A DNA stretch of 64,000 nucleotides from a virus, in the IMG/VR virus record IMGVR_UViG_3300007722_000005, positions 28,206-92,205 of that record. One strand, given 5' to 3'. The notes under the pieces were generated by a model. That model made no database searches and was not told the origin of the DNA. It saw only the letters and a list, made by a program, of their open reading frames with translations. Numbering within the stretch: position 1 is the stretch's first letter; each line of letters begins with the position of its first letter. Below, piece by piece: positions 1,573 through 51,853 of the stretch. Position numbers and translations under genes: made by a program.

Positions 1573-1580
1573 AATTTTAA

Positions 1581-1828
1581 CCTCTCTATAGCCGGGGTTC
1601 TGTTCTATCTGCTAATTCGTCTGTGAGTTTCCTCACCCTCGTCAGGTTTCAATCTGAGTCATAGGTGCACCAACCCGATATCTCGGCGAGTCACGTCATC
1701 GATATCTGTTTGGCTTGCTGCCGCTGATGTCATCGTACAAGCGACTTTCGTCTCCGATGTAGCATTTACAGCTGCTCTTGGCAGCCCCGAACTTCCTCGA
1801 CAACAAGTTGCCGCTAGCAGTCGAGAGG
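1581..1828 (-). ncRNA. rnpB: RNase P RNA (M1-type), phage-encoded
   Basis: Read on the minus strand, the element has the universal RNase P RNA core. The 5' conserved block GAGGAAGUUCGGGGCU pairs with the 3' block ACAGAACCCCGGCU to form helix P4, including the conserved bulged U (AG-U-UCGGGG with CCCCGGCU). P1 is CCUCUC/GAGAGG and can extend to 14 bp with flanking AU pairs. P2 is CUGCUA/UAGCAG, P3 a short hairpin GGCAA-CUUG-UUGUC, P5 GCUGCC/GGCAGC; a GUGAG-GAAA-CUCAC hairpin follows. At about 250 nt it is shorter than E. coli M1 (377 nt). It lies just upstream of the tRNA array's companion genes, where it would process tRNA 5' ends. Confidence 0.85.
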
Positions 1829-1836
1829 TTAAAATT

Positions 1837-2454: not shown

Positions 2455-2549
2455 TGGTGCCCCCGCCCGGATTCGAACCGAGATCATGCGCCAATCTAGC
2501 GCCAATGCCGAGGTATAAGCTCGGAGTTTTACCGTTAAACTACAGGGGT
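2455..2549 (-). tRNA. tRNA, anticodon UAU (Ile), with a long variable arm
   Basis: Anticodon stem CCGAG/CUCGG encloses CUUAUAC (anticodon UAU). T-arm CUCGG-UUCGAAU-CCGGG, acceptor ACCCCUG/CGGGGGC and encoded CCA. The variable region is about 25 nt and contains two UUGGCGC units able to form a GCGC stem; that is unusual for Ile, so identity is less certain than structure. Confidence 0.7.
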
Positions 2550-2551
2550 TT

Positions 2552-2626
2552 TGGAGCTCCAGGACAGAGTTGAACTGTCTTTCGCACTTTACCAAAGTGC
2601 AGTAATAACCATTATACTACAGGAGC
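2552..2626 (-). tRNA. tRNA-Thr (GGU)
   Basis: Anticodon stem GCACU/AGUGC with loop UUGGUAA; acceptor GCUCCUG/CUGGAGC; CCA encoded. Separated from the preceding tRNA by only two bases, so both probably come from one precursor. Confidence 0.85.
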
Positions 2627-2703
2627 GTTAATAAGTCCAGCCTAAAACTTTCATCAATTTCGTTTTGACTCTAATGCTGGTGCGTTAATTATCCACATAA
2701 TTT

Positions 2704-2776
2704 TGGCACCCCATGAAGGAATTCAACCTCCGCAATCAAGGGTAGAAACCTCGACGCCGACATCATCGGATGGGGC
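2704..2776 (-). tRNA. tRNA-Arg (UCU)
   Basis: Acceptor GCCCCAU/AUGGGGU, D-arm CCGAUGAUGUCGG, anticodon stem CGAGG/CCUUG with loop UUUCUAC, T-arm GGAGG-UUGAAUU-CCUUC, CCA encoded. The D-arm is the same as in tRNA-Arg(UCG) at 7065, indicating common origin. Confidence 0.8.
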
Positions 2777-2810
2777 ATTGTTAAAAGTTAAAATCCTGTT
2801 ATTTGTACAG

Positions 2811-2918
2811 CTATAAAAAATATCCTATAGCAACTATAACGAACCACTCTGTCAGTGAAAATTGGTAACACCAACTCGGCAGCTTGAATGCAATATATTC
2901 AAATATTTTGTCAAACAT
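2811..2918 (-). CDS. possible 35-residue hydrophobic peptide
   Basis: Short frame starting at an ATG that overlaps the stop of the preceding gene by one base (TAATG). The C-terminal half is hydrophobic (WFVIVAIGYFL) and could form one membrane segment. No Shine-Dalgarno is visible and no family is recognised. Confidence 0.3.
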   Translation of the reverse strand: MFDKIFEYIAFKLPSWCYQFSLTEWFVIVAIGYFL

Positions 2919-2919
2919 T

Positions 2920-3138
2920 TTAGTAGTGCCTTTCGTTTGGATGAAGTCGCCAAAATAACCGGCTCGCTTTCTCTGGCGCTTTGTGGTAAACATCAAACCA
3001 ATATTCGTGCACAATGTCTAGCTTCTGGTTCTTCTGCTTGTGCCCGATCCAATAGGGGTTCGAATGGCCACGAGGGCGCCACGTTTTTTCGTGGTAATTC
3101 CTGCGTAGTTGCCTGTCGAGGAATCTATACCCCCACAT
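2920..3138 (-). CDS. hypothetical protein, aromatic and basic
   Basis: 72 residues, rich in W, Y, H and R (for example EYWFDVYHKAPEKASR), hydrophilic, no recognised family. It starts one base after the stop of the preceding small gene and so belongs to the same operon. Confidence 0.5.
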   Translation of the reverse strand: MWGYRFLDRQLRRNYHEKTWRPRGHSNPYWIGHKQKNQKLDIVHEYWFDVYHKAPEKASRLFWRLHPNERHY

Positions 3139-3139
3139 A

Positions 3140-3283
3140 TCAGACGTTCAGGTGCTTCTTGAGAGATTCGAGCTCGCGCTGTTTCCGAGCAACATACTTC
3201 TCATTATCAGGGTAAGCTATTTTGAAACGCTCAAGTGCACCTTTACGACGTTCCTGACGACGAATAAAACTATTCTTGATCAT
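3140..3283 (-). CDS. 47-residue basic helical protein
   Basis: Frame from an ATG at 3283 that overlaps the phosphatase-like gene's stop (ATGA). The product is rich in R, K and E with a likely helix (NEKYVARKQRELESLKKHL). Tight spacing on both sides supports it as a real gene despite its size. Function unknown. Confidence 0.55.
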   Translation of the reverse strand: MIKNSFIRRQERRKGALERFKIAYPDNEKYVARKQRELESLKKHLNV

Positions 3284-3606
3284 TTTAGCTGGTCCTCCAT
3301 CTCATTAAATGCTCGACTAAGTTGTACCGATGCTATCTGAACAAGTTTTGGATCCTTGAATCCAAAATTATCAGGTAGATTTAATGTTATCACGTGTTTG
3401 TCGGCAAGGTCGAATTCGCTCGAAGTTTCCTCGAAATTCTCTTTGTTGACAAACACAACAGCATCGGACCAATGAATCAGAACGTCGTCAGCGTGGATCA
3501 ACGCAAATGTTTTTGTTGACCCTGCTGCACGTGTGTTGAAGTTGAATGGATCGTTTGATAGAATCCAAGCGACGGTCGGGGAGCGTAGCAGTCCAGCTGA
3601 GCACAC
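3280..3606 (-). CDS. tyrosine-phosphatase-like protein (COG4551 type)
   Basis: The P-loop VCSAGLLRSPT fits the C-x5-R-S signature of low-molecular-weight protein tyrosine phosphatases, and the later VITLNLPDNFGFKDPKLV matches the conserved IPDxYxFMDPELV-like end of the COG4551 family. The first in-frame start seen is a GTG right at the catalytic loop, which would remove the first beta strand (KVLCV). The frame stays open upstream to near the AAGGAG at about 3680, so the true start is probably upstream at a non-standard codon. Confidence 0.6.
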   Translation of the reverse strand: MCSAGLLRSPTVAWILSNDPFNFNTRAAGSTKTFALIHADDVLIHWSDAVVFVNKENFEETSSEFDLADKHVITLNLPDNFGFKDPKLVQIASVQLSRAFNEMEDQLK

Positions 3607-3716
3607 ACAAAGAACCTTTAACGAAGTTCCTTGGTGAGAATTAGTAGAATTGTGTTTTCTGTTATTGATGATGAACTCCTTTTTGATGAAGGTTTCGTAA
3701 CTGTTTGAATATGACT

Positions 3717-3744
3717 ATTATACGTTTTTTTTACAAAAGGTCAA
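3717..3744 (-). promoter_or_regulatory. sigma70-like promoter
   Basis: Minus-strand TTGACC, 16-bp spacer, TATAAT. Both hexamers are near-consensus. It lies between tRNA-Gly and the phosphatase-like gene and would drive 3606 downward through the small genes and the first tRNAs. Confidence 0.75.
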
Positions 3745-3763
3745 CAATTTTAAATTTCAAAAG

Positions 3764-3838
3764 TGGAGCAGGTGGCGGGGATCGAACCCGCGACATTCAC
3801 GTTGGCAACGTGGCATTCTTCCGCTGAACTACACCTGC
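3764..3838 (-). tRNA. tRNA-Gly (GCC)
   Basis: Acceptor GCAGGUG/CACCUGC is fully paired; anticodon loop UUGCCAA in stem CCACG/CGUGA; T-arm GCGGG-UUCGAUC-CCCGC; CCA encoded. Confidence 0.9.
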
Positions 3839-3872
3839 GTTATTACATTTCTTCGTGTGTGCTTACGCTTGT

Positions 3873-3950
3873 TGGTACCCCCGGTCGGATTCGAACCGAC
3901 ACTGTGCAGGTTTTGAATCTGCTGCCTCCTACCAATTGCGCTACGGGGGC
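3873..3950 (-). tRNA. tRNA-Leu (CAA), short variable arm
   Basis: Acceptor GCCCCCG/CGGGGGU, anticodon loop UUCAAAA in a GCAGA/CCUGC stem, T-arm GUCGG-UUCGAAU-CCGAC, CCA encoded. The variable region is only about 6 nt, whereas bacterial tRNA-Leu normally has a long type II arm. Confidence 0.8.
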
Positions 3951-3962
3951 ATAGTTTTTGAT

Positions 3963-4033
3963 TGGTACCCTGAGTGAGATTCGAACTCACAAAAGCTGGT
4001 TTAGGAAACCTGCTCCCGTCCATTGGTCAGGAT
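3963..4033 (-). tRNA. tRNA-Arg (CCU), reduced D-arm
   Basis: Acceptor AUCCUGA/UCAGGGU, anticodon loop UUCCUAA, T-arm GUGAG-UUCGAAU-CUCAC, CCA encoded. The D region is short (CC-AAUGGAC-GG), giving a 71-nt tRNA. Confidence 0.75.
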
Positions 4034-4034
4034 G

Positions 4035-4427
4035 TTATGTATGTATTATTGCTGAGGCGATATACTTCTGTATCTTAGCAGGTACGTTATGTGCTTTATT
4101 CATTACATCGGTCATTGTGAACTCGCTCGTGATTCCTTCTCGTGCGAAACTATATAGCGTTCCACCTGGGTGCTCAGTAGCGAGTATCTTCAACATACCG
4201 GCATCAGTAGCTGGAGCGTTGACTGCTGTTTTCTTGATCTTTACCGCCTGTGCAATGCCCATTGTATCTCGGAGCATAGACATCACCTCAGAGGGATCAG
4301 CATTGCGCATTACAGACAACACTTTACCGACGAGGACGTTGATGGCCTTATCTTTTCCAGACTTTACTTGCTCAACGGTCTTTTGATTGTCTGCAATGAC
4401 TTGGGTAATTAGTTCTTCTATTTTCAT
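4035..4427 (-). CDS. GatB/YqeY-domain protein
   Basis: 130 residues from the ATG at 4427; the longer upstream frame is only the tRNA-Ser read through. The N-terminal half (NQKTVEQVKSGKDKAINVLVGKVL) matches the GatB/YqeY tRNA-amidotransferase tail domain (NPxxVxxyksGKxkAixxLVGqVMK), which binds the elbow of tRNA in GatCAB. The remainder is unrecognised. Lying between tRNA-Arg and tRNA-Ser, it may act on tRNA, but the catalytic GatB part is absent, so amidotransferase activity is not predicted. Confidence 0.65.
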   Translation of the reverse strand: MKIEELITQVIADNQKTVEQVKSGKDKAINVLVGKVLSVMRNADPSEVMSMLRDTMGIAQAVKIKKTAVNAPATDAGMLKILATEHPGGTLYSFAREGITSEFTMTDVMNKAHNVPAKIQKYIASAIIHT

Positions 4428-4435
4428 ATGAATTT

Positions 4436-4525
4436 TGGCGGAGAGTAGAGTAGTCGAAACCCATTCCATTCCTGGAACCAACTGTTTTCGAGGCAGTGTC
4501 GTCAATCCCTGACAATTTACTCTCC
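4436..4525 (-). tRNA. tRNA-Ser (CGA)
   Basis: 90-nt type II tRNA: acceptor GGAGAGU/ACUCUCC with discriminator G, anticodon loop CUCGAAA in stem ACUGC/ACAGU, long variable arm UGGUUCC-AG-GAAUGGA, CCA encoded. Its first bases overlap the stop codon of the 56-residue gene upstream. Confidence 0.85.
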
Positions 4526-4687
4526 ATTAAGTATTTTAGCGTCTTTCTCGCTGAGAGGAGTGCAACAATCTACCTTCAACTCTTCGTATGGAAGCTTTCT
4601 GAATATACGATCCCAACCTTCACGATAAGCATTGGTCGGTTGTTTCGTTTTCAGTTCGTCGCCAGTGATGTCGTTTTTTGATGTCAT
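4517..4687 (-). CDS. 56-residue conserved-looking phage protein
   Basis: ATG at 4687; the product begins MTSKNDITGDELKTK and contains YREGWDRIF, a soluble charged protein. Its TAA stop (4517-4519) lies inside the acceptor stem of tRNA-Ser, so maturation of that tRNA destroys the 3' end of this message. Function unknown. Confidence 0.6.
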   Translation of the reverse strand: MTSKNDITGDELKTKQPTNAYREGWDRIFRKLPYEELKVDCCTPLSEKDAKILNGE

Positions 4688-4702
4688 AATCTATTTGTGT
4701 AG

Positions 4703-4778
4703 TGGTAGTGACCGTGGGAGTCGAACCCACCTATTCTTCCTTATGAGGGAAGCACATAAGCCGCTCTGTCAGGTCACT
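4703..4778 (-). tRNA. tRNA-Met (CAU)
   Basis: Acceptor AGUGACC/GGUCACU, anticodon stem CUUCC/GGAAG with loop CUCAUAA, CCA encoded. CAU could also be an Ile2 tRNA if C34 were lysidinylated; sequence alone does not decide. Confidence 0.85.
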
Positions 4779-4783
4779 GCTGT

Positions 4784-4857
4784 TGGTGGTTCCAAGAGGA
4801 ATCGGACCTCTATATTCGCCATGTCAAAGCGACACTCTACCATTGAGTTATGGAACC
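4784..4857 (-). tRNA. tRNA-Val (GAC)
   Basis: Acceptor GGUUCCA/UGGAACC, anticodon loop UUGACAU in stem UCGCU/GGCGA, T-arm AGAGG-UCCGAUU-CCUCU, CCA encoded. Confidence 0.8.
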
Positions 4858-4864
4858 TAATTTA

Positions 4865-4940
4865 TGGGGTGATCGACGAGATTCGAACTCGCGCTATCTG
4901 ATTCACAATCAGAGGTGCTGACCTTTACACTACGACCACC
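4865..4940 (-). tRNA. tRNA-His (GUG)
   Basis: Anticodon loop UUGUGAA in stem UCUGA/UCAGA. An extra 5' G opposite C73 is present before acceptor GUGGUCG/CGAUCAC, the identity hallmark of tRNA-His. CCA encoded. Confidence 0.9.
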
Positions 4941-4946
4941 ATTGTT

Positions 4947-5018
4947 TGGTAGCGGCCGAGGGTAACGATCCCTCTCCCATCGCAGGTTATGAGCCTGGAG
5001 TCTACCACTAGAAGCCGC
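4947..5018 (-). tRNA. tRNA-Met (CAU), second copy
   Basis: Acceptor GCGGCUU/GGCCGCU, anticodon loop CUCAUAA, T-loop AUCGUUA, CCA encoded. It differs widely from the Met tRNA at 4703. The three G-C pairs of an initiator are not seen, so it may be an elongator or Ile2. Confidence 0.8.
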
Positions 5019-5041
5019 AATAGTCTTCTTTACTTCAATTC

Positions 5042-5118
5042 TGGTGCGCGGGCAGAGAATCGAACTCTGCAAATCCCACTTGTAAGGAGGGTGGTGTCAC
5101 CAGCTACGCTCCCCGCGC
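5042..5118 (-). tRNA. tRNA-Val (UAC)
   Basis: Acceptor GCGCGGG/CCCGCGC fully paired, anticodon loop CUUACAA, T-arm GCAGA-GUUCGAUU-CUCUGC, CCA encoded. Confidence 0.85.
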
Positions 5119-5174
5119 TTTGCGTGAAGTTATAAGGTTGTCAAGCCAACCTTCTCAAATCATGAGATGAAAAT

Positions 5175-5251
5175 TGGTCGGAGTACAAGGATTCGAACCT
5201 TGGACCCTCTGCTCCCAAAGCAGATGCGCTGCCAGACTGCGCTACACTCCG
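5175..5251 (-). tRNA. tRNA-Pro (UGG)
   Basis: Acceptor CGGAGUG/UACUCCG, anticodon loop UUUGGGA in stem UCUGC/GCAGA, T-arm CAAGG-UUCGAAU-CCUUG, CCA encoded. The C1-G72 pair is typical of bacterial Pro tRNA. Confidence 0.9.
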
Positions 5252-5256
5252 AAACT

Positions 5257-5330
5257 TGGTGCCCCTTGACGGAATCGAACCGCCGTAAGCTGCTTACAAA
5301 ACAGCCGTAATACCATTATACTAAAGGGGC
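5257..5330 (-). tRNA. tRNA-Thr (UGU)
   Basis: Acceptor GCCCCUU/AAGGGGC, anticodon loop UUUGUAA in stem GCUGU/GCAGC, T-arm GGCGG-UUCGAUU-CCGUC, CCA encoded. Confidence 0.9.
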
Positions 5331-5332
5331 AA

Positions 5333-5400
5333 ATTATATTAATTACTTTTCTAAGTCAACTACTCGACCGCTGAGCTATCGAGTAATAATTCTATTTATA
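5333..5400 (-). promoter_or_regulatory. promoter region over a truncated tRNA remnant
   Basis: Minus strand: TATAAATA late box (5393-5400), then a tRNA 5'-half look-alike (UUACUCGAUAGCUCAGCGG, with D-arm) lacking any T-arm, then TTGACT, 15 bp, TATAAT (5333-5359) directly before tRNA-Thr. The half tRNA is probably a relic of an array rearrangement. Confidence 0.45.
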
Positions 5401-5402
5401 GT

Positions 5403-5597
5403 CTACGTTTCTTCCATTCCTGACGCTCCAGAGAGGCTTACACAATTTGGATCCTCTGCAATTACCGCAACAAACCGCATGTGGATGCTTCGCAACGTTG
5501 CTGCAATCGAAAGAGCGTCGCTCAAATCGCTGGCAACGTGGCCTTGTGTTACACTATCAAGCGTTGTCCAATATACTTTATATTCAGCTTTGTTCAT
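5403..5597 (-). CDS. hypothetical protein
   Basis: 64 residues from the ATG at 5597; a GTG at 5615 would add six residues. The core KVYWTTLDSVTQGHVASDLSDALSIAATLRS looks like a globular small protein. No family recognised. It is the only coding gene between the tRNA remnant and the structured leader at 5.6-5.85 kb. Confidence 0.5.
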   Translation of the reverse strand: MNKAEYKVYWTTLDSVTQGHVASDLSDALSIAATLRSIHMRFVAVIAEDPNCVSLSGASGMEET

Positions 5598-5850
5598 ATG
5601 TTTTACTTGTGACACTATCGTTTAAGCCCGCTCAGGCCCGCACCCTCGAGGTATGTTGACCATATTTGCAAGACTCCTATGTAGCTTTCATAGGCGTAAC
5701 GCCACAAGTAAAACATTCGGCTCAGTACACCGAGAGGTATGATGAGTATCCTTTATGGTGTAGGGGACGTCCAGGCACATCACCGCGGTACACCATTTCA
5801 TCTTCTTTTGTTGCACTAAGGCGAAGAATCTTCAGAAGGTAACCTTTTCA
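5594..5850 (-). ncRNA. candidate structured RNA / leader
   Basis: A region of about 250 bases downstream of the promoter at 5860. On the minus strand it contains an outer pairing ACUUGUG...CACAAGU about 100 nt apart, inner hairpins CCUAUG-CAUAGG and GGCG-UUA-CGCC, and a further hairpin GGUGUA/UACACC around a GC-rich core. Its 3' end reaches the start of the 5403 gene. The first part could alternatively encode a short peptide (KILRLSATKEDEMVYRG...) without a standard start codon. No known RNA class was matched. Confidence 0.35.
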
Positions 5851-5914
5851 ACAATGTCTATTATACTACCATTTAAAGAATAGTCAACACTTTTCTTTTT
5901 ATTGTTAATTCGGC
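5841..5914. repeat. 74-bp direct repeat, copy A
   Basis: Identical except for one base to 7343-7416. It contains the end of the sulfotransferase-like gene and a sigma70-like promoter, so the other copy is a displaced gene end plus promoter. Confidence 0.9.
5860..5887 (-). promoter_or_regulatory. sigma70-like promoter inside repeat copy A
   Basis: TTGACT, 16 bp, TATAAT on the minus strand. The -35 lies within the last codons of the sulfotransferase-like gene. It would transcribe the structured leader and the 5403 gene. Confidence 0.75.
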
Positions 5915-6505
5915 TGTGTACTTCTCTTTAATTCTGTGAAGCTGTCCCGTTGCCCACTCCAAATTCCTGATGTATTGGTGTTGTTCAGAAGTTTGTTGAA
6001 CACCAACAACGGTGTTTAACCGTCGGTCAAAAAACTCTTCTGGCATGTTGTCGTGTGTTATTATAGTTCCTCTTGTAGGGAAGAATTGAACATATCTGCG
6101 CATGAATTCATTCCACTGTTCAATATGTTCAACAGGAGCTGTAAAATTAAATAGTTGAATTTCTGTTGATATCCTGAAACCAAACTGTTTTGCAAGAAGG
6201 AAGCTGAGTCCTGCTTGAACCATATCTTTTTCGACAACGAAAATTTCGTGCCGTGTTGTTTTCATCACCTTTTTGTACCACGCAATTGATTGTGGGAATC
6301 GGCAAAGATGATGGCCATGCAACTTTATAACAGTGTTTCCATTGTTCAAGCGATGAAGTAACCAATATTTTCGAAATACTGATGCAAAATTATCATCGTA
6401 ACGAGGTGCAAACGGCTCATAAATTTTGTTTTGTCGTTTGCACGAATGAAAAATAGCGCTACCATCTGTGCGGCGGTGGCTGTAAATTATTACTGGGTTT
6501 TTCAT
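5873..6505 (-). CDS. putative sulfotransferase-like protein
   Basis: 210 residues from the ATG at 6505; the upstream frame is antisense tRNA-Leu. The N-terminal VIIYSHRRTDGSAIF resembles the sulfotransferase 5'-PSB loop, and IFVVEKDMVQAGLSFLLA resembles the RRxdxvxQAlSlxxA 3'-phosphate loop of Stf0-like enzymes. The similarity is weak and the rest is unrecognised. A late box TATAAATA lies 24-31 bases upstream. It sits alone inside the tRNA array. Confidence 0.35.
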   Translation of the reverse strand: MKNPVIIYSHRRTDGSAIFHSCKRQNKIYEPFAPRYDDNFASVFRKYWLLHRLNNGNTVIKLHGHHLCRFPQSIAWYKKVMKTTRHEIFVVEKDMVQAGLSFLLAKQFGFRISTEIQLFNFTAPVEHIEQWNEFMRRYVQFFPTRGTIITHDNMPEEFFDRRLNTVVGVQQTSEQHQYIRNLEWATGQLHRIKEKYTAELTIKRKVLTIL

Positions 6506-6528
6506 AACACATCCTTTTTGAGATGTAT

Positions 6529-6536
6529 TATTTATA
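6529..6536 (-). promoter_or_regulatory. T4-type late promoter TATAAATA
   Basis: Exact minus-strand TATAAATA just downstream of tRNA-Leu(UAA) and upstream of the sulfotransferase-like start codon. Confidence 0.6.
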
Positions 6537-6537
6537 A

Positions 6538-6614
6538 TGGTGCGAGTCATGGGAGTCGAACCCACACTGACCAGGTTTTAAATCTGGCGCCTCTTCCAAT
6601 TGGGCTACACTCGC
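6538..6614 (-). tRNA. tRNA-Leu (UAA), short variable arm
   Basis: Acceptor GCGAGUG/UGACUCGC, anticodon loop UUUAAAA in stem CCAGA/CCUGG, T-arm GUGGG-UUCGACU-CCCAU, CCA encoded; variable region about 5 nt. Confidence 0.8.
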
Positions 6615-6620
6615 GAAACT

Positions 6621-6695
6621 TGGAGCCCTGTGACAGATTCGAGCTGTCCTCTGAACTTTACGAAAGTTCTGTGTCGCCGTCTACACTTACGGGGC
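6621..6695 (-). tRNA. tRNA-Thr (CGU)
   Basis: Acceptor GCCCCGU/ACAGGGC, anticodon stem GAACU/AGUUC with loop UUCGUAA, T-loop CUCGAAU, CCA encoded. Confidence 0.85.
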
Positions 6696-6701
6696 AAAAC
6701 T

Positions 6702-6777
6702 TGGTGCGTCCCACAGGAATCGAACCTGTTTCAATGGCTCTTCAAACCACCGCTATGACCACATCAGCTAGAGACGC
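6702..6777 (-). tRNA. tRNA-Phe (GAA)
   Basis: Acceptor GCGUCUC/GGGACGC, anticodon loop UUGAAGA in stem GUGGU/GCCAU, T-arm ACAGG-UUCGAUU-CCUGU, CCA encoded. Confidence 0.85.
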
Positions 6778-6813
6778 AAATATCTCCGTTACACTATTTG
6801 TAGCTATTAAATT

Positions 6814-6887
6814 TGGAGACTCGAGACAGAGTTGAACTGTCATCTTCGGGTTTGCAATCCGAGGCACGGCCGTTATACCACCGAGTC
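6814..6887 (-). tRNA. tRNA-Cys (GCA)
   Basis: Acceptor GACUCGG/UCGAGUC, anticodon loop UUGCAAA, T-arm GACAG-UUCAACU-CUGUC, CCA encoded with discriminator U as in bacterial tRNA-Cys. Confidence 0.85.
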
Positions 6888-6893
6888 ATTGTT

Positions 6894-6970
6894 TGGTGCG
6901 CGAGGTGGGACTCGAACCCACAGAACCTACCCTCTCAAGATAGTATGTTTACCAATTTCATCACAAGCGC
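6894..6970 (-). tRNA. tRNA-Leu (GAG), short variable arm
   Basis: Anticodon stem CUAUC/GGUAG with loop UUGAGAG, T-arm GUGGG-UUCGAGU-CCCAC, CCA encoded. The D-arm GAUGAAAUUGGUAAACAU is Leu-like. The acceptor has two mismatches and the variable region is about 5 nt. Confidence 0.75.
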
Positions 6971-6979
6971 GTTGTTAGT

Positions 6980-7059
6980 TGGTGGAGTGAAAGAGAGTCG
7001 AACTCTAAGGCTACTAGTATGAGCGACCGCAAGGTCGCCGCCGCGATCCGAACCACCCC
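6980..7059 (-). tRNA. irregular tRNA-like gene, anticodon unclear
   Basis: Acceptor GGGGUGG/UCACUCC, T-arm AGAG-UUCGACU-CUCU and CCA are good. The middle holds a strong 6-bp hairpin GCGACC-UUGC-GGUCGC and a weakly paired AUACUAG segment, so no normal anticodon arm can be assigned. It may be degenerate or unusually folded. Confidence 0.4.
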
Positions 7060-7064
7060 GTATT

Positions 7065-7137
7065 TGGTACCCCATGAAGGAATTTAACCCTCGCAACTGA
7101 GCTTCGAAGGCTCTGCGCCGACATCATCGGATGGGAT
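7065..7137 (-). tRNA. tRNA-Arg (UCG)
   Basis: Acceptor AUCCCAU/AUGGGGU, D-arm CCGAUGAUGUCGG, anticodon loop CUUCGAA, T-arm GAGGG-UUAAAUU-CCUUC, CCA encoded. Confidence 0.8.
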
Positions 7138-7140
7138 ATT

Positions 7141-7212
7141 TGGCAACGGTGCACGGAGTCAAACCGTGTTGTATTTCCTTCAGAGGGAAAACCAGCTTCA
7201 AGCTTCACCGCA
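7141..7212 (-). tRNA. tRNA-Gln (CUG), small D-arm
   Basis: Anticodon stem UUUCC/GGAAA with loop CUCUGAA, T-arm CACGG-UUUGACU-CCGUG, acceptor UGCGGUG/CACCGUU (weak first pairs, as in Gln tRNAs), CCA encoded. Confidence 0.8.
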
Positions 7213-7220
7213 ATTGTTCT

Positions 7221-7297
7221 TGGTGCCCTAGAGGGGACTCGAACCCCTAAAATCTACATTCTAAGTGTAGCACGTATGCCAATTCCGTCACCAGGGC
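7221..7297 (-). tRNA. tRNA-Leu (UAG), short variable arm
   Basis: Acceptor GCCCUGG/CUAGGGC, D-arm GACGGAAUUGGCAUACG, anticodon stem CUACA/UGUAG with loop CUUAGAA, T-arm AGGGG-UUCGAGU-CCCCU, CCA encoded; variable region 5 nt. Confidence 0.85.
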
Positions 7298-7342
7298 AAT
7301 ATTATTTAGATGTTATTAGTGTTGGTGTTTCCACGTTCACTC

Positions 7343-7416
7343 AACCTTTTCAACAATGTCTATTGTACTACCATTTAAAGAATAGTCAACACTTTTCTTT
7401 TTATTGTTAATTCGGC
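7343..7416. repeat. 74-bp direct repeat, copy B
   Basis: Matches 5841-5914 at 73 of 74 positions. No coding frame of the sulfotransferase-like gene precedes it, so it carries only the gene's end and the promoter. Confidence 0.9.
7362..7389 (-). promoter_or_regulatory. sigma70-like promoter inside repeat copy B
   Basis: TTGACT, 16 bp, TACAAT on the minus strand, upstream of the tRNA-Leu(UAG) to tRNA-Leu(UAA) group. Confidence 0.65.
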
Positions 7417-7437
7417 CTTGCGGCTCTCGCGTTGTAC

Positions 7438-7514
7438 TGGTGGGGGTAGAGGGATTCGAACCCACAATGACCCAGATTCAAAGTCTGGTACGCTTCCAGT
7501 CGCGTGTTACCCCT
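7438..7514 (-). tRNA. tRNA-Gln (UUG)
   Basis: Anticodon stem CCAGA/UCUGG with loop CUUUGAA, T-arm GUGGG-UUCGAAU-CCCUC, acceptor AGGGGUA/UACCCCC, CCA encoded. Confidence 0.85.
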
Positions 7515-7520
7515 ATTGTT

Positions 7521-7594
7521 TGGTACTCCGGGAAGGAATCAAACCTTCGTGGGCCCCTTATCAAGAGGCTATCTTATCATTAGATGACCGGAGC
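7521..7594 (-). tRNA. tRNA-Ile (GAU)
   Basis: Acceptor GCUCCGG/CCGGAGU, anticodon loop UUGAUAA in stem GCCUC/GGGGC, T-arm GAAGG-UUUGAUU-CCUUC, CCA encoded. Confidence 0.85.
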
Positions 7595-7600
7595 ATATTT

Positions 7601-7690
7601 TGGCGGAAAGCAGAGCGATCGAAGCCCAAACCCTTTCAGGTTCCAACCGATTAGCAATCGGCGCCGCACTCCATGCGCAATTTACTTTCC
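7601..7690 (-). tRNA. tRNA-Ser (GCU)
   Basis: Type II tRNA: acceptor GGAAAGU/GCUUUCC, anticodon loop UUGCUAA in stem GCCGA/UCGGU, variable arm UGGAACCUGAAAGGG, CCA encoded. Confidence 0.85.
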
Positions 7691-7695
7691 AAATA

Positions 7696-7772
7696 TGGTC
7701 TTTCAGGTGAGACTCGAACTCACGAAATCTTCGCCCCAAACGAAGTGGTATAGCCGCTAACCGACTGAAAGA
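7696..7772 (-). tRNA. tRNA-Pro (UGG), second
   Basis: Acceptor UCUUUCA/UGAAAGA fully paired, anticodon stem CUUCG/CGAAG with loop UUUGGGG, T-arm GUGAG-UUCGAGU-CUCAC, CCA encoded. The acceptor lacks the usual C1-G72, so identity by anticodon only. Confidence 0.75.
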
Positions 7773-7789
7773 TATTCATTCCGTGTTTT

Positions 7790-7911
7790 CTATAGCACGG
7801 AGTATAACTTACCGGAGCCCATATAACCGTCATCAAGTGACTCGGTCTTATGAACTCCGACGTAGATTTTATTATTCACGAGTTAGTGATTTGATAGAGG
7901 CAATATTTCAT
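7790..7911 (-). pseudogene. degraded GIY-YIG homing endonuclease fragment
   Basis: An ATG at 7911 opens MKYCLYQITNS then a TGA; one frame over, NNKIYVGVHKTESLDDG continues with YMGSGKLYSVL and a TAG. Joined, these give the GIY-YIG N-terminus (xYxITNxxNxKxYVGVHKT...DDGYMGSGK) typical of Seg-type endonucleases. The catalytic remainder is missing. The start codon lies in the loop of a 9-10 bp inverted repeat (GAUAGAGGC/GCCUCUAUC). Confidence 0.7.
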
Positions 7912-7940
7912 GCCTCTATCGATAATAGATCTACTATGTG

Positions 7941-8012
7941 CTCCATCTCCTGGGATCGAACCAGGGACCTAGCGATTAACAGTCGCTTGCACTACCGCTG
8001 TGCTAAGATGGA
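7941..8012 (-). tRNA. tRNA-Asn (GUU)
   Basis: Acceptor UCCAUCU/AGAUGGA, anticodon loop CUGUUAA in stem AGCGA/UCGCU, T-arm CCUGG-UUCGAUC-CCAGG. Unlike the other members, CCA is not encoded (the DNA reads G-CAC), so it needs nucleotidyltransferase. Confidence 0.85.
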
Positions 8013-8018
8013 ATAACT

Positions 8019-8113
8019 TGGCTCCGCAGAGAGGCTTCGAACCTCTATATTGCGCCTTTCGGCCTTTACGTCTCATTAACAGTGAGGTCTCTTACCAATT
8101 AGAGTACCGCGGA
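8019..8113 (-). tRNA. tRNA with anticodon GUU (Asn) and a long variable arm
   Basis: Acceptor UCCGCGG/CUGCGGA, anticodon loop CUGUUAA, T-arm AGAGG-UUCGAAG-CCUCU, CCA encoded. The variable region of about 25 nt holds a GCC-GAAA-GGC hairpin, abnormal for Asn. Identity is by anticodon only. Confidence 0.7.
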
Positions 8114-8164
8114 ATAAATCTTTATAATTCATATATCTCGTTGGAAATACATCAATTATAACGA

Positions 8165-8243
8165 TGGTGGGAGCGCCGGGATTCGAACCCGAATCTATCA
8201 GATTAAAAGTCTGTTGTGTTAAATCCGTTGACACCACACTCCC
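8165..8243 (-). tRNA. tRNA-Lys (UUU)
   Basis: Acceptor GGGAGUG/CGCUCCC, anticodon loop CUUUUAA, T-arm UCGGG-UUCGAAU-CCCGG, CCA encoded. Confidence 0.85.
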
Positions 8244-8313
8244 ATTTGTTTACTACGTTTACCATCTTTCGATTTTCGTTTCATATCAAGATCCTTTTTT
8301 GATAAATATTAAC

Positions 8314-8472
8314 ATGCAAAAACTACAAAATTTTAAAGCCTTCTTTCAGCGCAATAAAAAGCAGGCTGAAGCCGAACCCCACACTGGCCCCGATCGTCGG
8401 AAAGGACCACGTCGCACTGTGACGAAGATTAAAACAAACTATACCGCGTGGCATGATCGCCGTGCTGCATAA
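8314..8472 (+). CDS. 52-residue basic protein on the opposite strand
   Basis: Plus-strand frame from ATG 8314, no tRNA overlap. The product is very basic, with two RR-type motifs (GPDRRKGPRR near the middle and WHDRR at the end), suggesting nucleic-acid binding. A GATAAATA box (8301-8308), one base from the late consensus, is just before it but very close to the ATG. It is one of the few plus-strand genes in the window. Confidence 0.45.
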   Translation: MQKLQNFKAFFQRNKKQAEAEPHTGPDRRKGPRRTVTKIKTNYTAWHDRRAA

Positions 8473-8476
8473 TGCC

Positions 8477-8557
8477 AAGAGTGTCCTAGGCCACTAGACG
8501 ATCTCGCACACGCCAGTAGCGTGGGTCGAGTGGGATTTGAACCCACGTCTCTCTTGT
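8477..8557 (-). tRNA. circularly permuted tRNA-like gene 1
   Basis: Minus-strand order is 3' half then 5' half. CAAGAG (3' side of anticodon stem), AGAC, T-arm GUGGG-UUCAAAU-CCCAC, an acceptor-like hairpin (UCGACCC.../...UGUGCGA capped by ACGC-UACUG-GCGU), then the D-arm UCGUCUAGUGGCCUAGGACA and CUCUUG, which pairs with the first CAAGAG. The D-arm has the form of Glu tRNAs (GUCU/GGAC stem). There is no CCA and no anticodon loop between the halves. It starts 3 bases after the CCA of tRNA-Asp. The acceptor part is imperfect. Confidence 0.5.
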
Positions 8558-8559
8558 TC

Positions 8560-8635
8560 TGGCGCCGAGGACGGGGATTGAACCCGCCTGAGAATGATCG
8601 ACAGTCATCCTGTATCCCCAGATAGCTACCTCGGC
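8560..8635 (-). tRNA. tRNA-Asp (GUC), copy 1
   Basis: Acceptor GCCGAGG/CCUCGGC fully paired, anticodon loop CUGUCGA in stem GAUGA/UCAUU, T-arm GCGGG-UUCAAUC-CCCGU, CCA encoded. Followed directly by permuted element 1. Confidence 0.9.
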
Positions 8636-8666
8636 AAATATGGAGTTGCGTAAACGCAACATTGTT

Positions 8667-8794
8667 TGGGACGCGATGGTGAGGTTTTCACTCACGACGA
8701 TTTACAAGATCGCTATCAGCTTTACCCCTCATGGTTGTAACCCCACTACTCATAAAGCATTCCTGTGGACTCGGTCACCACAGCTTCACCGCGT
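8667..8794 (-). tRNA. irregular tRNA-like gene with large D-region insertion
   Basis: Ends pair as an 8-bp acceptor (ACGCGGUG/CAUCGCGU) followed by CCCA. An arm GCGAU-CUUGUAA-AUCGU (anticodon UGU) is present, and AGCU/AGCU could form a D stem around a roughly 60-nt insertion. The T-loop UGAAAAC is not canonical. Possibly degenerate. Confidence 0.35.
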
Positions 8795-8795
8795 T

Positions 8796-8869
8796 TGGAG
8801 CACCTGCGCGGATTCGAACCGCGTTCAATAGTTTGGAAAACTATGTCCTCTCCCAGGAGCGACAGATGC
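8796..8869 (-). tRNA. tRNA-Gly (UCC), copy 1
   Basis: Acceptor GCAUCUG/CAGGUGC, anticodon stem AUAGU/ACUAU with loop UUUCCAA, T-arm CGCGG-UUCGAAU-CCGCG, CCA encoded. Confidence 0.9.
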
Positions 8870-8886
8870 ATTAGTTGAATGTCGAC

Positions 8887-8894
8887 TATTTATA
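8887..8894 (-). promoter_or_regulatory. T4-type late promoter TATAAATA
   Basis: Exact minus-strand box between tRNA-Trp and tRNA-Gly, so part of the array can be transcribed late. Confidence 0.55.
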
Positions 8895-8903
8895 ATATTG
8901 TTT

Positions 8904-8978
8904 TGGCGGCCCTGCACGGAATCGAACCGCGTTGGCTGGTTTTGGAGACCAGTGCATCACCTTTCATGCTTCAGGGAC
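8904..8978 (-). tRNA. tRNA-Trp (CCA)
   Basis: Anticodon stem CUGGU/ACCAG with loop CUCCAAA, T-arm CGCGG-UUCGAUU-CCGUG, discriminator G, CCA encoded. Its anticodon arm closely resembles that of the CUA tRNA at 27639. Confidence 0.9.
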
Positions 8979-8992
8979 ATAATTTAATTTGA

Positions 8993-9078
8993 GCTAAGAC
9001 AAAAAGGACTCGAACCTTCGCTTTCGCCAGAACCAGTTGTGCACCTACGTCTATAAACGTTTCCACAACCTTCTCAGC
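8993..9078 (-). ncRNA. unclassified tRNA-like structured RNA
   Basis: The ends pair (GCUGAGA with UCUUAGC, 7 bp) and a T-arm-like hairpin GAAGG-UUCGAGU-CCUUU is present. In place of D and anticodon arms there is a long helix GUUGUG/CACAAC enclosing ACGU-UUAUAG-ACGU, then a GGCGAAAGC loop. No CCA. Neither a normal tRNA nor tmRNA could be fitted. Confidence 0.35.
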
Positions 9079-9094
9079 AACATGCAAACCCTAC

Positions 9095-9136
9095 ATTATA
9101 TCAAATTCACACAACAATTATAGTTGCAAGTGTGAA
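9095..9136 (-). promoter_or_regulatory. possible promoter with 31-bp inverted repeat
   Basis: A TATAAT box (9095-9100) lacks a clear -35 but has an inverted repeat just upstream (9106-9136): arms TTCACAC/GTGTGAA with inner CAAC/GTTG. This looks like a dimeric regulator site controlling the RNA at 8993-9078. Confidence 0.35.
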
Positions 9137-9146
9137 CCTCAAAACT

Positions 9147-9230
9147 TGGTGGTTGTGGTAGGATTCGAACCTACTCAGCTAGTGGGCCACTGATTTACAG
9201 TCAGCTTATCTCTCCAAGGAATGCACAACC
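9147..9230 (-). tRNA. tRNA-Tyr (GUA)
   Basis: Type II tRNA: acceptor GGUUGUG/CACAACC, anticodon loop CUGUAAA in stem CUGA/UCAG, variable arm GGCCCACUAGCUGA, T-arm GUAGG-UUCGAAU-CCUAC, CCA encoded. Confidence 0.9.
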
Positions 9231-9247
9231 ATTGTAATACGAAATCT

Positions 9248-9321
9248 TGGTGGTTCTAGAAGGTAACGATCCTTCGTCGCACGATTATCAGTCGTGTGCT
9301 CTACCTTTGAGCTACAGAACC
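9248..9321 (-). tRNA. tRNA-Ile (GAU), second
   Basis: Acceptor GGUUCUG/UAGAACC, anticodon stem CACGA/UCGUG with loop CUGAUAA, T-arm GAAGG-AUCGUUA-CCUUC, CCA encoded. Confidence 0.85.
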
Positions 9322-9327
9322 TAAAAG

Positions 9328-9402
9328 GCGGGAGTGTCCTACCACTATACGATTACCCTCACGAGGGTAAGTGGAAATCGAATCCACGTCTCTTTCTTTA
9401 CT
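9328..9402 (-). tRNA. circularly permuted tRNA-like gene 2
   Basis: Order on the minus strand: AAAGAAAGAGAC, T-arm GUGGA-UUCGAUU-UCCAC, acceptor 3' strand UUACCCU, a 4-nt linker CGUG, acceptor 5' strand AGGGUAA (7/7 pairing with the 3' strand), then D-arm UCGUAUAGUGGUAGGACA and CUCCCGCC. T-, acceptor and D-arms thus occur in permuted order, with the acceptor closed as a hairpin and no CCA. Only GAG/CUC of the expected anticodon stem pairs, so maturation to a functional tRNA is unproven. It follows tRNA-Asp copy 2 directly. Confidence 0.5.
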
Positions 9403-9477
9403 TGGCGGTCCCAAGGGGTAACGATCCCCTTCTTCGACAGTGACAGTGTCGTGTGCGTCCATGAACACTTTGGAACC
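9403..9477 (-). tRNA. tRNA-Asp (GUC), copy 2
   Basis: Acceptor GGUUCCA/UGGGACC, anticodon stem CGACA/UGUCG with loop CUGUCAC, T-arm AGGGG-AUCGUUA-CCCCU, CCA encoded. It differs widely from copy 1 but is also followed by a permuted element. Confidence 0.85.
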
Positions 9478-9489
9478 GAATGCAATAAC

Positions 9490-9581
9490 TGGCGGAGAGC
9501 AGAGGAGTCGAACCCCATCCCCTTTCGGGGAACCTAGTTTTCAAGGCTAGTCGACACACCAACGCGTCTGCATTACTCTCC
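9490..9581 (-). tRNA. tRNA-Ser (UGA)
   Basis: Type II tRNA: acceptor GGAGAGU/GCUCUCC, anticodon loop CUUGAAA, variable arm UUCCCCGAAAGGGGA, CCA encoded. Confidence 0.9.
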
Positions 9582-9589
9582 ATTAATAC

Positions 9590-9664
9590 TGGTGCACCCG
9601 AGGAGAATCGAACTCCCTTTCGCAGATTGAAAGTCTGCTGTCCTAACCGGTAGACGACGGATGC
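9590..9664 (-). tRNA. tRNA-Glu (UUC)
   Basis: Acceptor GCAUCCG/CGGGUGC, D-arm UCGUCUACCGGUUAGGACA, anticodon loop CUUUCAA, T-arm GGGAG-UUCGAUU-CUCCU, CCA encoded. This is a normally ordered Glu tRNA, so the Glu-like permuted element would be additional. Confidence 0.9.
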
Positions 9665-9674
9665 ATAATTCGCA

Positions 9675-9737
9675 GGCGTATTCCGGAGCAGCTCACGCAA
9701 GGTGAGTGCCCATTGAGTCATCAACTCAACTTACGCC
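9675..9737 (-). tRNA. tRNA-like remnant lacking a T-arm
   Basis: Ends GGCGUA/UACGCC pair; a D-like hairpin UUGAGU/ACUCAA and a hairpin CUCAC-CUUGC-GUGAG follow, but no T-arm or CCA is present. Probably a deletion product of a tRNA gene. Confidence 0.3.
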
Positions 9738-9745
9738 ATTGATCT

Positions 9746-9820
9746 TGGTGGGCCCTGTGGGATTTTAACCCACATCGTCTCGGGTAAGAGCCGAGTGTAA
9801 TAACGTTATACGAAAGACCC
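9746..9820 (-). tRNA. tRNA-Lys (CUU)
   Basis: Acceptor GGGUCUU/AGGGCCC, anticodon stem CUCGG/CCGAG with loop CUCUUAC, T-arm GUGGG-UUAAAAU-CCCAC, CCA encoded. Confidence 0.85.
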
Positions 9821-9826
9821 ATAATT

Positions 9827-9900
9827 TGGAGCGGGATAGGAGAATCGAACTCCTTTAACTAGTTTGGAAGACTAGGACACAACCAATATGCCAATCCCGC
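9827..9900 (-). tRNA. tRNA-Gly (UCC), copy 2
   Basis: Acceptor GCGGGAU/AUCCCGC fully paired, anticodon stem CUAGU/ACUAG with loop CUUCCAA, T-arm AGGAG-UUCGAUU-CUCCU, CCA encoded. Confidence 0.9.
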
Positions 9901-27638: not shown

Positions 27639-27713
27639 TGGCGCTCCCGGTGGGAATCGAACCCACTGTCTCGGTTTTAGAGACCGCTGCCGCAACCAAT
27701 TGGCTTCAGGAGC
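27639..27713 (-). tRNA. suppressor tRNA, anticodon CUA (reads UAG)
   Basis: Acceptor GCUCCUG/CGGGAGC, anticodon stem GCGGU/ACCGA with loop CUCUAAA (anticodon CUA), T-arm GUGGG-UUCGAUU-CCCAC, discriminator G, CCA encoded. The anticodon arm is one loop base away from that of tRNA-Trp(CCA) at 8904, so the amber suppressor may have arisen from Trp and may insert Trp or Gln. It stands alone, 18 kb from the array. Confidence 0.8.
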
Positions 27714-50230: not shown

Positions 50231-51853
50231 TTATTCTGTAAACATCAACCATTTATCGTTGTTTACTGCTAAAACCACATCCTTTTCAATTAGATCAAAA
50301 TCGTTTGAGCTAAGGAAAGGAACGACCTCCTCATCAATTGCTGGTTGTTTTTCAGCAAGCAGAGCTTTTCGTGCATCTGTGTCGGTAAGGTCTTTGAAAT
50401 ATGTTTGTGATGTGGCCCACGCAAAAATTACGCAACACATCACCATGTCGTCGTTCCCGTCTTCAGCTTCATAAGAATTTTTGACAGATACGAATCGCAT
50501 CAATTCAAACATGATAGTCTCATCACGCAAAAGCATTTTTTGGTTTTCGACCAGCGACTTCAGATTTGAACATCCAAACTTCTTTGATTGCTTTGTTGTT
50601 CTCATACCTAATTTTGTCGCTCCACCAAAACCACCAGAAAGAACCTGAATACCTGATTTCTGGTCGCTCGATGTTGTAAGCACGTTCTCATACTCCAGAT
50701 CATAATGGAGGATGTCACATACCTGTTGCCCAATATCATTCGTTTCAACAAGCACGGCACAATCCCGGTACTTTTCTGCTGCCGATTTAATTACAGTTGG
50801 GAAAAGTAAAGGTGACAGCAAATTGTTGCGGTATGTCGCAACAACTCTATAGGGCACCTCTGTGATATCAAAAATAACAAATGCAGAATAATCAGCTCCC
50901 TGACCTCTTGCAGTATCAACTGTCATCAGATAACTTCGATCTTTCTTCGGTTCCTCATAAATCGAAACCTCTGCGTGTTTGATTATAGGAACGTCGGCAA
51001 CGAGATGTCTAAGAATATCAGGATGAATAAGGGTGTTTGATGACCCGACAAATTCTGTCTCAAATTCGACGCGGAACTGGTCAGCGCTTGTGTTACGGAT
51101 TGTTTCCTTCTTCCACTTCTCGTCGCGACCTGGTGTTTCCGACCAGTGGATACTGACGCGGTTATAATCGTTACGCCCGAGCTCGCTATCTCTCCACATT
51201 TTGTAGAAGAGGTTAAGACCATTCGGTGTTGATGTAATTAATACCTTTGTTGTCTTACCCGACGAAATAACGGGGTACGTTGAAGCAAAAAATCTTTCTT
51301 GGAGGTTGTTCGGGACGAAAGCGAACTCGTCGAGATATACAAGGTTATATGAACCGCCTCGACCACCAGCTGAGGTTGTTGAAGATGCAATTATCTTCGA
51401 GTGATTCTCGAGCTCAATTGTTCCTTTGTTCCACTCAACGACACCTTGCTGCATCCACGACGGAAGGTTTTCATAAGCAAGTTGAATCCTCGAAAGAATT
51501 TCTCGAGCTTGTGCTAACTTGTGAGCAAAAATAGCAATTGAATACTCTTCGTTGAACAACATATACCAAATCATCAACCCGACAATTGCAGTTGTCTTAC
51601 CACACTGGCGTGGCATCTTGCAGATAACAAAACGCTCTGCCACCGACGTTGTGATAATATTTGTTTGGTATTGATATGGAACAAAATTAACGAGACCCTC
51701 GTCAACGTTAATAATCTTTACATAATTTGAAATAAAGTAGATAGGATCACGAGAGCACTTGACGAATTCTTTGACCTGGTCTGCTGTAAAATTATGTGGT
51801 ACATCACTCTTTTTTAGGTGACGGTTTCCTTGGTAGATTTCACTTCTTGCCAT
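50231..51853 (-). CDS. 17: terminase large subunit gp17
   Basis: 540 residues. Walker A PRQCGKTT (81-88), Walker B YNLVYLDEFAF, coupling motif ITSTPNG and nuclease residue in MTVDTARGQGADYS are intact. It packages DNA into the prohead using ATP and cuts concatemers. Start overlaps the gp16 stop. Confidence 0.95.
   Translation of the reverse strand: MARSEIYQGNRHLKKSDVPHNFTADQVKEFVKCSRDPIYFISNYVKIINVDEGLVNFVPYQYQTNIITTSVAERFVICKMPRQCGKTTAIVGLMIWYMLFNEEYSIAIFAHKLAQAREILSRIQLAYENLPSWMQQGVVEWNKGTIELENHSKIIASSTTSAGGRGGSYNLVYLDEFAFVPNNLQERFFASTYPVISSGKTTKVLITSTPNGLNLFYKMWRDSELGRNDYNRVSIHWSETPGRDEKWKKETIRNTSADQFRVEFETEFVGSSNTLIHPDILRHLVADVPIIKHAEVSIYEEPKKDRSYLMTVDTARGQGADYSAFVIFDITEVPYRVVATYRNNLLSPLLFPTVIKSAAEKYRDCAVLVETNDIGQQVCDILHYDLEYENVLTTSSDQKSGIQVLSGGFGGATKLGMRTTKQSKKFGCSNLKSLVENQKMLLRDETIMFELMRFVSVKNSYEAEDGNDDMVMCCVIFAWATSQTYFKDLTDTDARKALLAEKQPAIDEEVVPFLSSNDFDLIEKDVVLAVNNDKWLMFTE

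Follow-up and report, generated by a model that had tools for sequence, protein, structure and literature searches.

RNase P trims tRNAs, and few ribozymes other than its RNA are common to nearly all cells; viruses are generally taken to borrow the enzyme from the host. For example, the polycistronic pre-tRNAs of phage T4 are cut by an RNase P whose RNA and protein are entirely the host's (PMC11143913). In gut phages that carry theta ribozymes, the 5' ends of tRNAs are left to RNase P as usual (PMC10879173). A megaphage study in which every Rfam model was run reported nothing beyond tRNAs and one tmRNA (PMC8172020), a survey of huge phages leaves RNase P unmentioned (PMC7162821), and in the accessible part of a review on RNase P, phage tRNAs figure as substrates only. 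Loss of helix P12 from the RNA is known only in Mycoplasma fermentans, Thermoproteaceae and some CPR (PMC8172020).

Here we analysed a 64,000-nucleotide stretch of an uncultured viral record (the window). Window 1573-1836 on the minus strand is a phage-encoded, structurally conserved RNase P RNA, which likely acts as RNase P. To our knowledge no earlier natural viral RNase P RNA is known, and the phage copies would be the first. Our search of the openly accessible literature, with subscription papers and preprints outside it, found no report of a phage RNase P RNA, in line with the sequence-only reading, which had called such RNAs rarely described; priority is uncertain.

The RNase P RNA gene of the window

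Searching with the Rfam model of bacterial class A RNase P RNA (RF00010) revealed a highly significant match at window 1573-1832 on the minus strand, covering model positions 1-367 with 63.5 bits and E=5e-19 (computed for 601 bases and 4227 Rfam families). The proposal of a phage-encoded RNase P RNA at 1581-1828 is thus confirmed, its coordinates falling within the match. The score lies below the RF00010 gathering cut-off of 100 bits, largely because the specificity domain is mostly absent. As a result, the RNA is overlooked by default annotation: at curated cut-offs Rfam lists only tRNAs in the window and no RNase P RNA. The match is the single one to RF00010 in the 92,205-base record, and the predicted fold is more stable than that of shuffled sequence (z = -3.2). 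The locus is composed as follows.

1129-1572, minus: YspA/SLOG-family gene, directly downstream of the RNA (PF10686, 2.3e-16)
1573-1836, minus: RNase P RNA gene, 264 nt from P1 to P1, placed by the RF00010 match and the flanking TAA and ATG
1837-2406, minus: phosphoesterase gene, directly upstream of the RNA (phrog_547, 3.4e-50)
2455-9900, minus: array of 29 tRNA genes upstream of the RNA, 28 of them ending in an encoded CCA
50231-51853, minus: T4-type large terminase (PF03237, PF17289), which marks the contig as phage

Pairing puts the ends of the RNA at 1836 and 1573, where a perfect 14-bp P1 sets its boundaries. It coincides exactly with the intergenic gap, bordered by a TAA stop (1839-1837) on one side and an ATG (1572-1570) on the other. 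The following elements were recognized.

1823-1836, minus: P1 5' strand, AAUUUUAACCUCUC, forming 14 Watson-Crick pairs with 1573-1586; P1 covaries in relatives
1573-1586, minus: P1 3' strand, GAGAGGUUAAAAUU, from sequence; includes GAGG
1814-1820, minus: P2 5' strand, CUGCUAG, forming seven pairs with UUAGCAG at 1609-1615 (sequence and fold)
1798-1813, minus: P3 hairpin with a CUUG loop (sequence and fold)
1785-1798, minus: CR-I (GAGGAA) and P4 5' strand, AGUUCGGGG, with the equivalent of bulged U69
1590-1603, minus: CR-V (ACAGAA) and P4 3' strand, CCCCGGCU (RF00010 alignment and covariation)
1781-1784, minus: P5 5' strand, CUGC, pairing with GCAG at 1718-1721; covaries in two related contigs (G120 and G097)
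1727-1768, minus: specificity-domain remnant, 42 nt between the P7 strands
1672-1714, minus: P15, P16 and possibly P17 with a GGGUU loop; P15 and P16 covary in 13 relatives, motif by sequence
1623-1636, minus: P18 hairpin, GUGAG-GAAA-CUCAC, followed by J18/2, AGACGAAU, at 1615-1622

P1, P2, P3, P5 and P4 with its bulged U, all of which the sequence-only reading had claimed, are present. In P4, AGU(U)CGGGG pairs with CCCCGGCU, the bracketed U being the bulge. Compared with the common bacterial form, one A-U pair has become G-C, one C-G pair has become G-C, and one further pair has become a wobble; therefore this helix was kept through change rather than by copying. P5, P15, P16, the GGGUU loop, P18 with its GAAA loop and J18/2 follow one another along the RNA. 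P17 is weak, and P6 (J5/7 with L17) amounts to three candidate pairs, GAG/CUC, found by eye only.

The L15 GGU loop of bacterial RNase P pairs with the 3' CCA of tRNA. This loop, the bulged-U P4, CR-I, CR-V, the closed P1-P2-P3 core and P15-P16 are all recognizable, so by its core the RNA is a member of the bacterial RNase P RNA family. The remnant between the P7 strands cannot accommodate P11-P14, CR-II and CR-III are absent, and in the RF00010 alignment 18 nt stand in for 110 model positions of the specificity domain. Since P10-P12 with CR-II/CR-III, the T-loop-binding feature of class A, is lacking, we classed the RNA as a reduced phage variant and not as ordinary class A.

The GAGG in the P1 3' strand, 8 nt ahead of the ATG of the YspA/SLOG gene, is a likely ribosome-binding site; folding of the RNase P RNA and translation of the downstream gene are therefore possibly mutually exclusive.

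Viral relatives and covariation

Three conserved-motif scans of IMG/VR followed by RF00010 scoring turned up 16, 41 and about 25 viral contigs with an RNase P RNA. Scanning once more, for the CR-I form found in the window, added 13, all confirmed, some weakly. Altogether about 90 other viral contigs carry related genes, and about 85 of the viral RNAs are distinct, 84 besides the window once identical RNAs are removed; every carrier found is an uncultured contig.

For covariation we aligned 13 sequences sharing the P4 form of the window, with the specificity domain excised. Across P1, P4, P5, P15 and P16, 92.7% of the cells are paired versus 76.9% after shuffling, and 19 of the 31 pairs show changes on both sides. 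The covariation score is 0.407 versus 0.138 for shuffled alignments, none of the 500 shuffles reaches any of the five measures, and sliding the partner columns by 1-3 positions lowers pairing to 28-48%. The invariance of the P4 5' strand in this set is no evidence, because the search pattern partly fixed that strand. Across 89 viral RNAs there are 23 distinct P4 forms, in which 177 of the 184 cells are paired; positions 67, 68, 71 and 72 show swapped pairs, and the bulge is U in 22 forms and A in one. The bulged-U P4 is thus retained with compensatory changes, both in the 13 relatives and in the larger viral set. Neither outcome named as refuting the sequence-only reading, a missing covariance-model match or loss of the P4/bulged-U pairing in related phages, was observed, and that reading is supported. 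The RNA of contig G013 (locus L113, 1501-1658, minus) is only 158 nt long and nearly confined to the catalytic domain (RF00010 E=3.7e-26); its P4 bulge is A, not U, and a T4-like clamp loader is encoded on the same contig.

The window contig bears T4-like hallmarks, namely terminase, portal, major head protein, tail sheath, DNA polymerase B, UvsX and a DnaB-type helicase, together with 11 T4-type late promoter octamers versus 2.4 expected. A T4-type terminase above the Pfam cut-off occurs in 18 carrier records including that of the window, or 16 without G112, which may be a prophage flank, and one of G004 and G015, which look like one phage. Some of the bacterial-like matches on short IMG/VR contigs probably come from cells, and where a short contig has a bacterial-like RNA and no tRNAs (G018, G067, G112 and G144 are examples), it was not used as proof. 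Using the phosphoesterase neighbour to pick phages independently of the RNA yielded 11 large contigs, of which two (G097 and G103) have a clear RNase P RNA and one (G100) a weak match of 21 bits. The closest terminase relatives of the window phage are short fragments without the RNase P RNA region, and at the DNA level the window matched no INPHARED phage.

Searching 84,980 species genomes for exact copies of the window's CR-V form, a single 18-mer, gave three places, one of them an RNase P RNA; since just this one 18-mer was scanned, near variants may occur in bacteria. The RNase P RNA lies on a 12.7-kb contig (JANWKP010000389.1, L331) of a Nitrososphaerales (archaeal) MAG. Given that its genes, TctC-like and reductase-like, are judged by eye to be of similar kind to those of the window phage, this contig probably comes from a misbinned phage that is related to the window phage and has the same type of RNase P RNA. 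With Infernal under its stricter filters, no RNase P RNA was detectable in 13 named phages, most of them large or tRNA-rich. Phages thus do not need an RNase P RNA of their own, and the negative result fits with the RNA having escaped notice. A record deposited as Microcystis phage MaAM05 (MW495066.1, L312), matched by queries with bacterial-like viral RNAs, does contain an RNase P RNA; it was rejected because it carries the bacterial genes fliM, fabI, engB and glyS, and is probably a bacterial contig.

Placement relative to tRNA genes

According to ARAGORN, the window has 29 tRNAs in the array and one more with a CUA anticodon, 30 in all rather than the roughly 40 estimated from sequence alone; the remainder of the contig has none. 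An encoded CCA is present in 29 of the 30, which fits the retained GGU loop. The window RNA itself lies outside the array, separated from the closest tRNA by about 620 nt that include the phosphoesterase gene. For the 84 distinct RNAs besides the window, we counted tRNAs in loci extending 1.5 kb either side. At least one tRNA lies within this distance of 59 RNAs and five or more accompany 44. A same-strand tRNA lies 10 nt or less from an end of the RNA in 34 cases, 13 of them at both ends, and none of the 567 neighbouring tRNAs is on the strand opposite to the RNase P RNA. In contigs G008 and G001, tRNA-Phe, RNase P RNA and tRNA-Leu succeed one another almost without gaps. In G097, which was found via the phosphoesterase neighbour, the RNA starts 3 nt after tRNA-Thr and ends 2 nt before tRNA-Arg, and RIIB adjoins the tRNA array; this 210-kb phage contig has 43 tRNA genes in the 9.4 kb around the RNase P RNA (L325, 4548-13891).

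The tRNA with the CUA anticodon (27639-27713) resembles an amber suppressor, ends in CCA and has a late promoter octamer just upstream; on its account we examined the window for in-frame TAG recoding and saw no clear sign. Within the tRNA array, an open reading frame at 4035-4505 encodes a GatB/YqeY tRNA-binding-type domain. Another carrier phage (contig G116) has a tmRNA gene near its RNase P RNA (L328, 7759-8215) and likewise an amber-suppressor-like tRNA.

Proposed mechanism and comparison with known systems

RnpA (PF00825) was found on none of the 80 carrier contigs, which are fragments, versus 10 of 14 control genomes in the same search; given this uniform absence, host RnpA is the likely partner. 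We consider it highly probable that the trimmed, bacterial-type phage RNA, together with host RnpA, would mature phage pre-tRNAs, and that flush copies would release themselves; we infer transcription, protein partner, catalysis and self-release. Initially, the RNA would be transcribed together with the phage tRNA genes and would fold via P1-P5 and P15-P18 around the metal-binding P4 core. It would then bind host RnpA, yielding a phage-host hybrid enzyme. Afterwards, the 5' leaders of phage pre-tRNAs would be removed, with their encoded CCA ends gripped by the GGU loop. In related phages whose RNA lies flush in the array, one and the same cut would give the following tRNA its 5' end and the ribozyme its 3' end, so that the array would release its own processing enzyme. 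The sub-threshold RF00010 score, the position of the window RNA outside the array, the 13 negative named phages and the restriction of carriers to uncultured contigs speak against this explanation, and loss of the TPsiC-loop-binding part could weaken pre-tRNA binding. The suggestion that the phage becomes independent of host limits on tRNA maturation would hold only in part, since the enzyme would continue to depend on a host protein subunit.

The main rival is that the phage RNA acts as a decoy that soaks up host RnpA and stops host tRNA maturation while cutting no tRNAs. Carrier contigs without RnpA imply competition for the host protein, and loss of much of the specificity domain would be in keeping with a binder that does not process. 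However, a decoy would have no need of the catalytic core (bulged-U P4, CR-I and CR-V) or of the CCA-binding loop, yet both have been maintained through compensatory change, and location within tRNA arrays points to supply of tRNA maturation rather than its blockage. Since both substrate-binding and catalytic parts are preserved, we regard a decoy as improbable. We give quite a low probability also to a cis-acting leader, in which P1 masks the ribosome-binding site of the YspA/SLOG gene and the fold chiefly controls that gene; the GAGG so close to its ATG would suit this, but related RNAs precede tRNAs or unrelated genes without such overlap, and control of this kind needs no 264-nt ribozyme core.

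It is very improbable that the RNA is a chance-acquired host rnpB copy, decaying and functionless. The missing specificity domain and the score below the Rfam cut-off are what such a remnant might show, but P1 is a perfect 14-bp helix, compensatory changes occur in all helices tested, the lineage is common to many phages, and the sole RNase P RNA found to share this CR-V form among the 84,980 species genomes sits on a phage-like contig; covariation in particular strongly disfavours decay. Finally, cellular contamination or chimeric assembly, which would make the RNA bacterial, is scarcely credible: some IMG/VR carrier contigs are in all likelihood cellular and the Microcystis phage record has its RNase P RNA amid bacterial genes, but the window RNA exactly fills the gap between two phage-type genes, its contig bears T4-like hallmarks, 17 other records combine a terminase with an RNase P RNA, and for the window this origin is already refuted, provided that the contig is not chimeric.

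Beyond maturation of phage pre-tRNAs by the window RNA with host RnpA, it appears somewhat probable that many large tailed phages carry one or more separate viral RNase P RNA lineages, some reduced to about the catalytic domain (as in the 158-nt RNA) and self-freeing within tRNA operons, whose phage-host enzyme would divert tRNA maturation to the phage. Such RNAs would mark tRNA maturation as a step taken over by phages, and the naturally minimised ones provide material for asking how little ribozyme suffices. RNase P RNA in metagenomes would also be an unsafe marker of a cellular genome.

The window RNA shares P1-P5, P15-P16, P18, CR-I, CR-V, the bulged-U P4 and the GGU loop with bacterial class A RNA, and differs in being phage-encoded, 264 nt long and mostly without the specificity domain. 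Its reduction is reminiscent of the P12-less RNAs of type T in Thermoproteaceae (Pyrobaculum), of Mycoplasma fermentans and of some CPR, which lost P12 and neighbouring specificity-domain helices and kept the catalytic domain (PMC8172020); those are the only RNase P RNA of their cell, whereas this is an extra viral copy. Many CPR RNAs lack the GGU loop, whereas the window RNA keeps the bacterial one. Theta ribozymes of gut phages are likewise phage ribozymes linked to phage tRNA genes, but they are HDV-like and act in cis at tRNA 3' trailers (PMC10879173). With T4 the shared feature is polycistronic phage pre-tRNAs cut by RNase P, an enzyme that T4 takes wholly from its host (PMC11143913) and for which the window phage supplies its own RNA.
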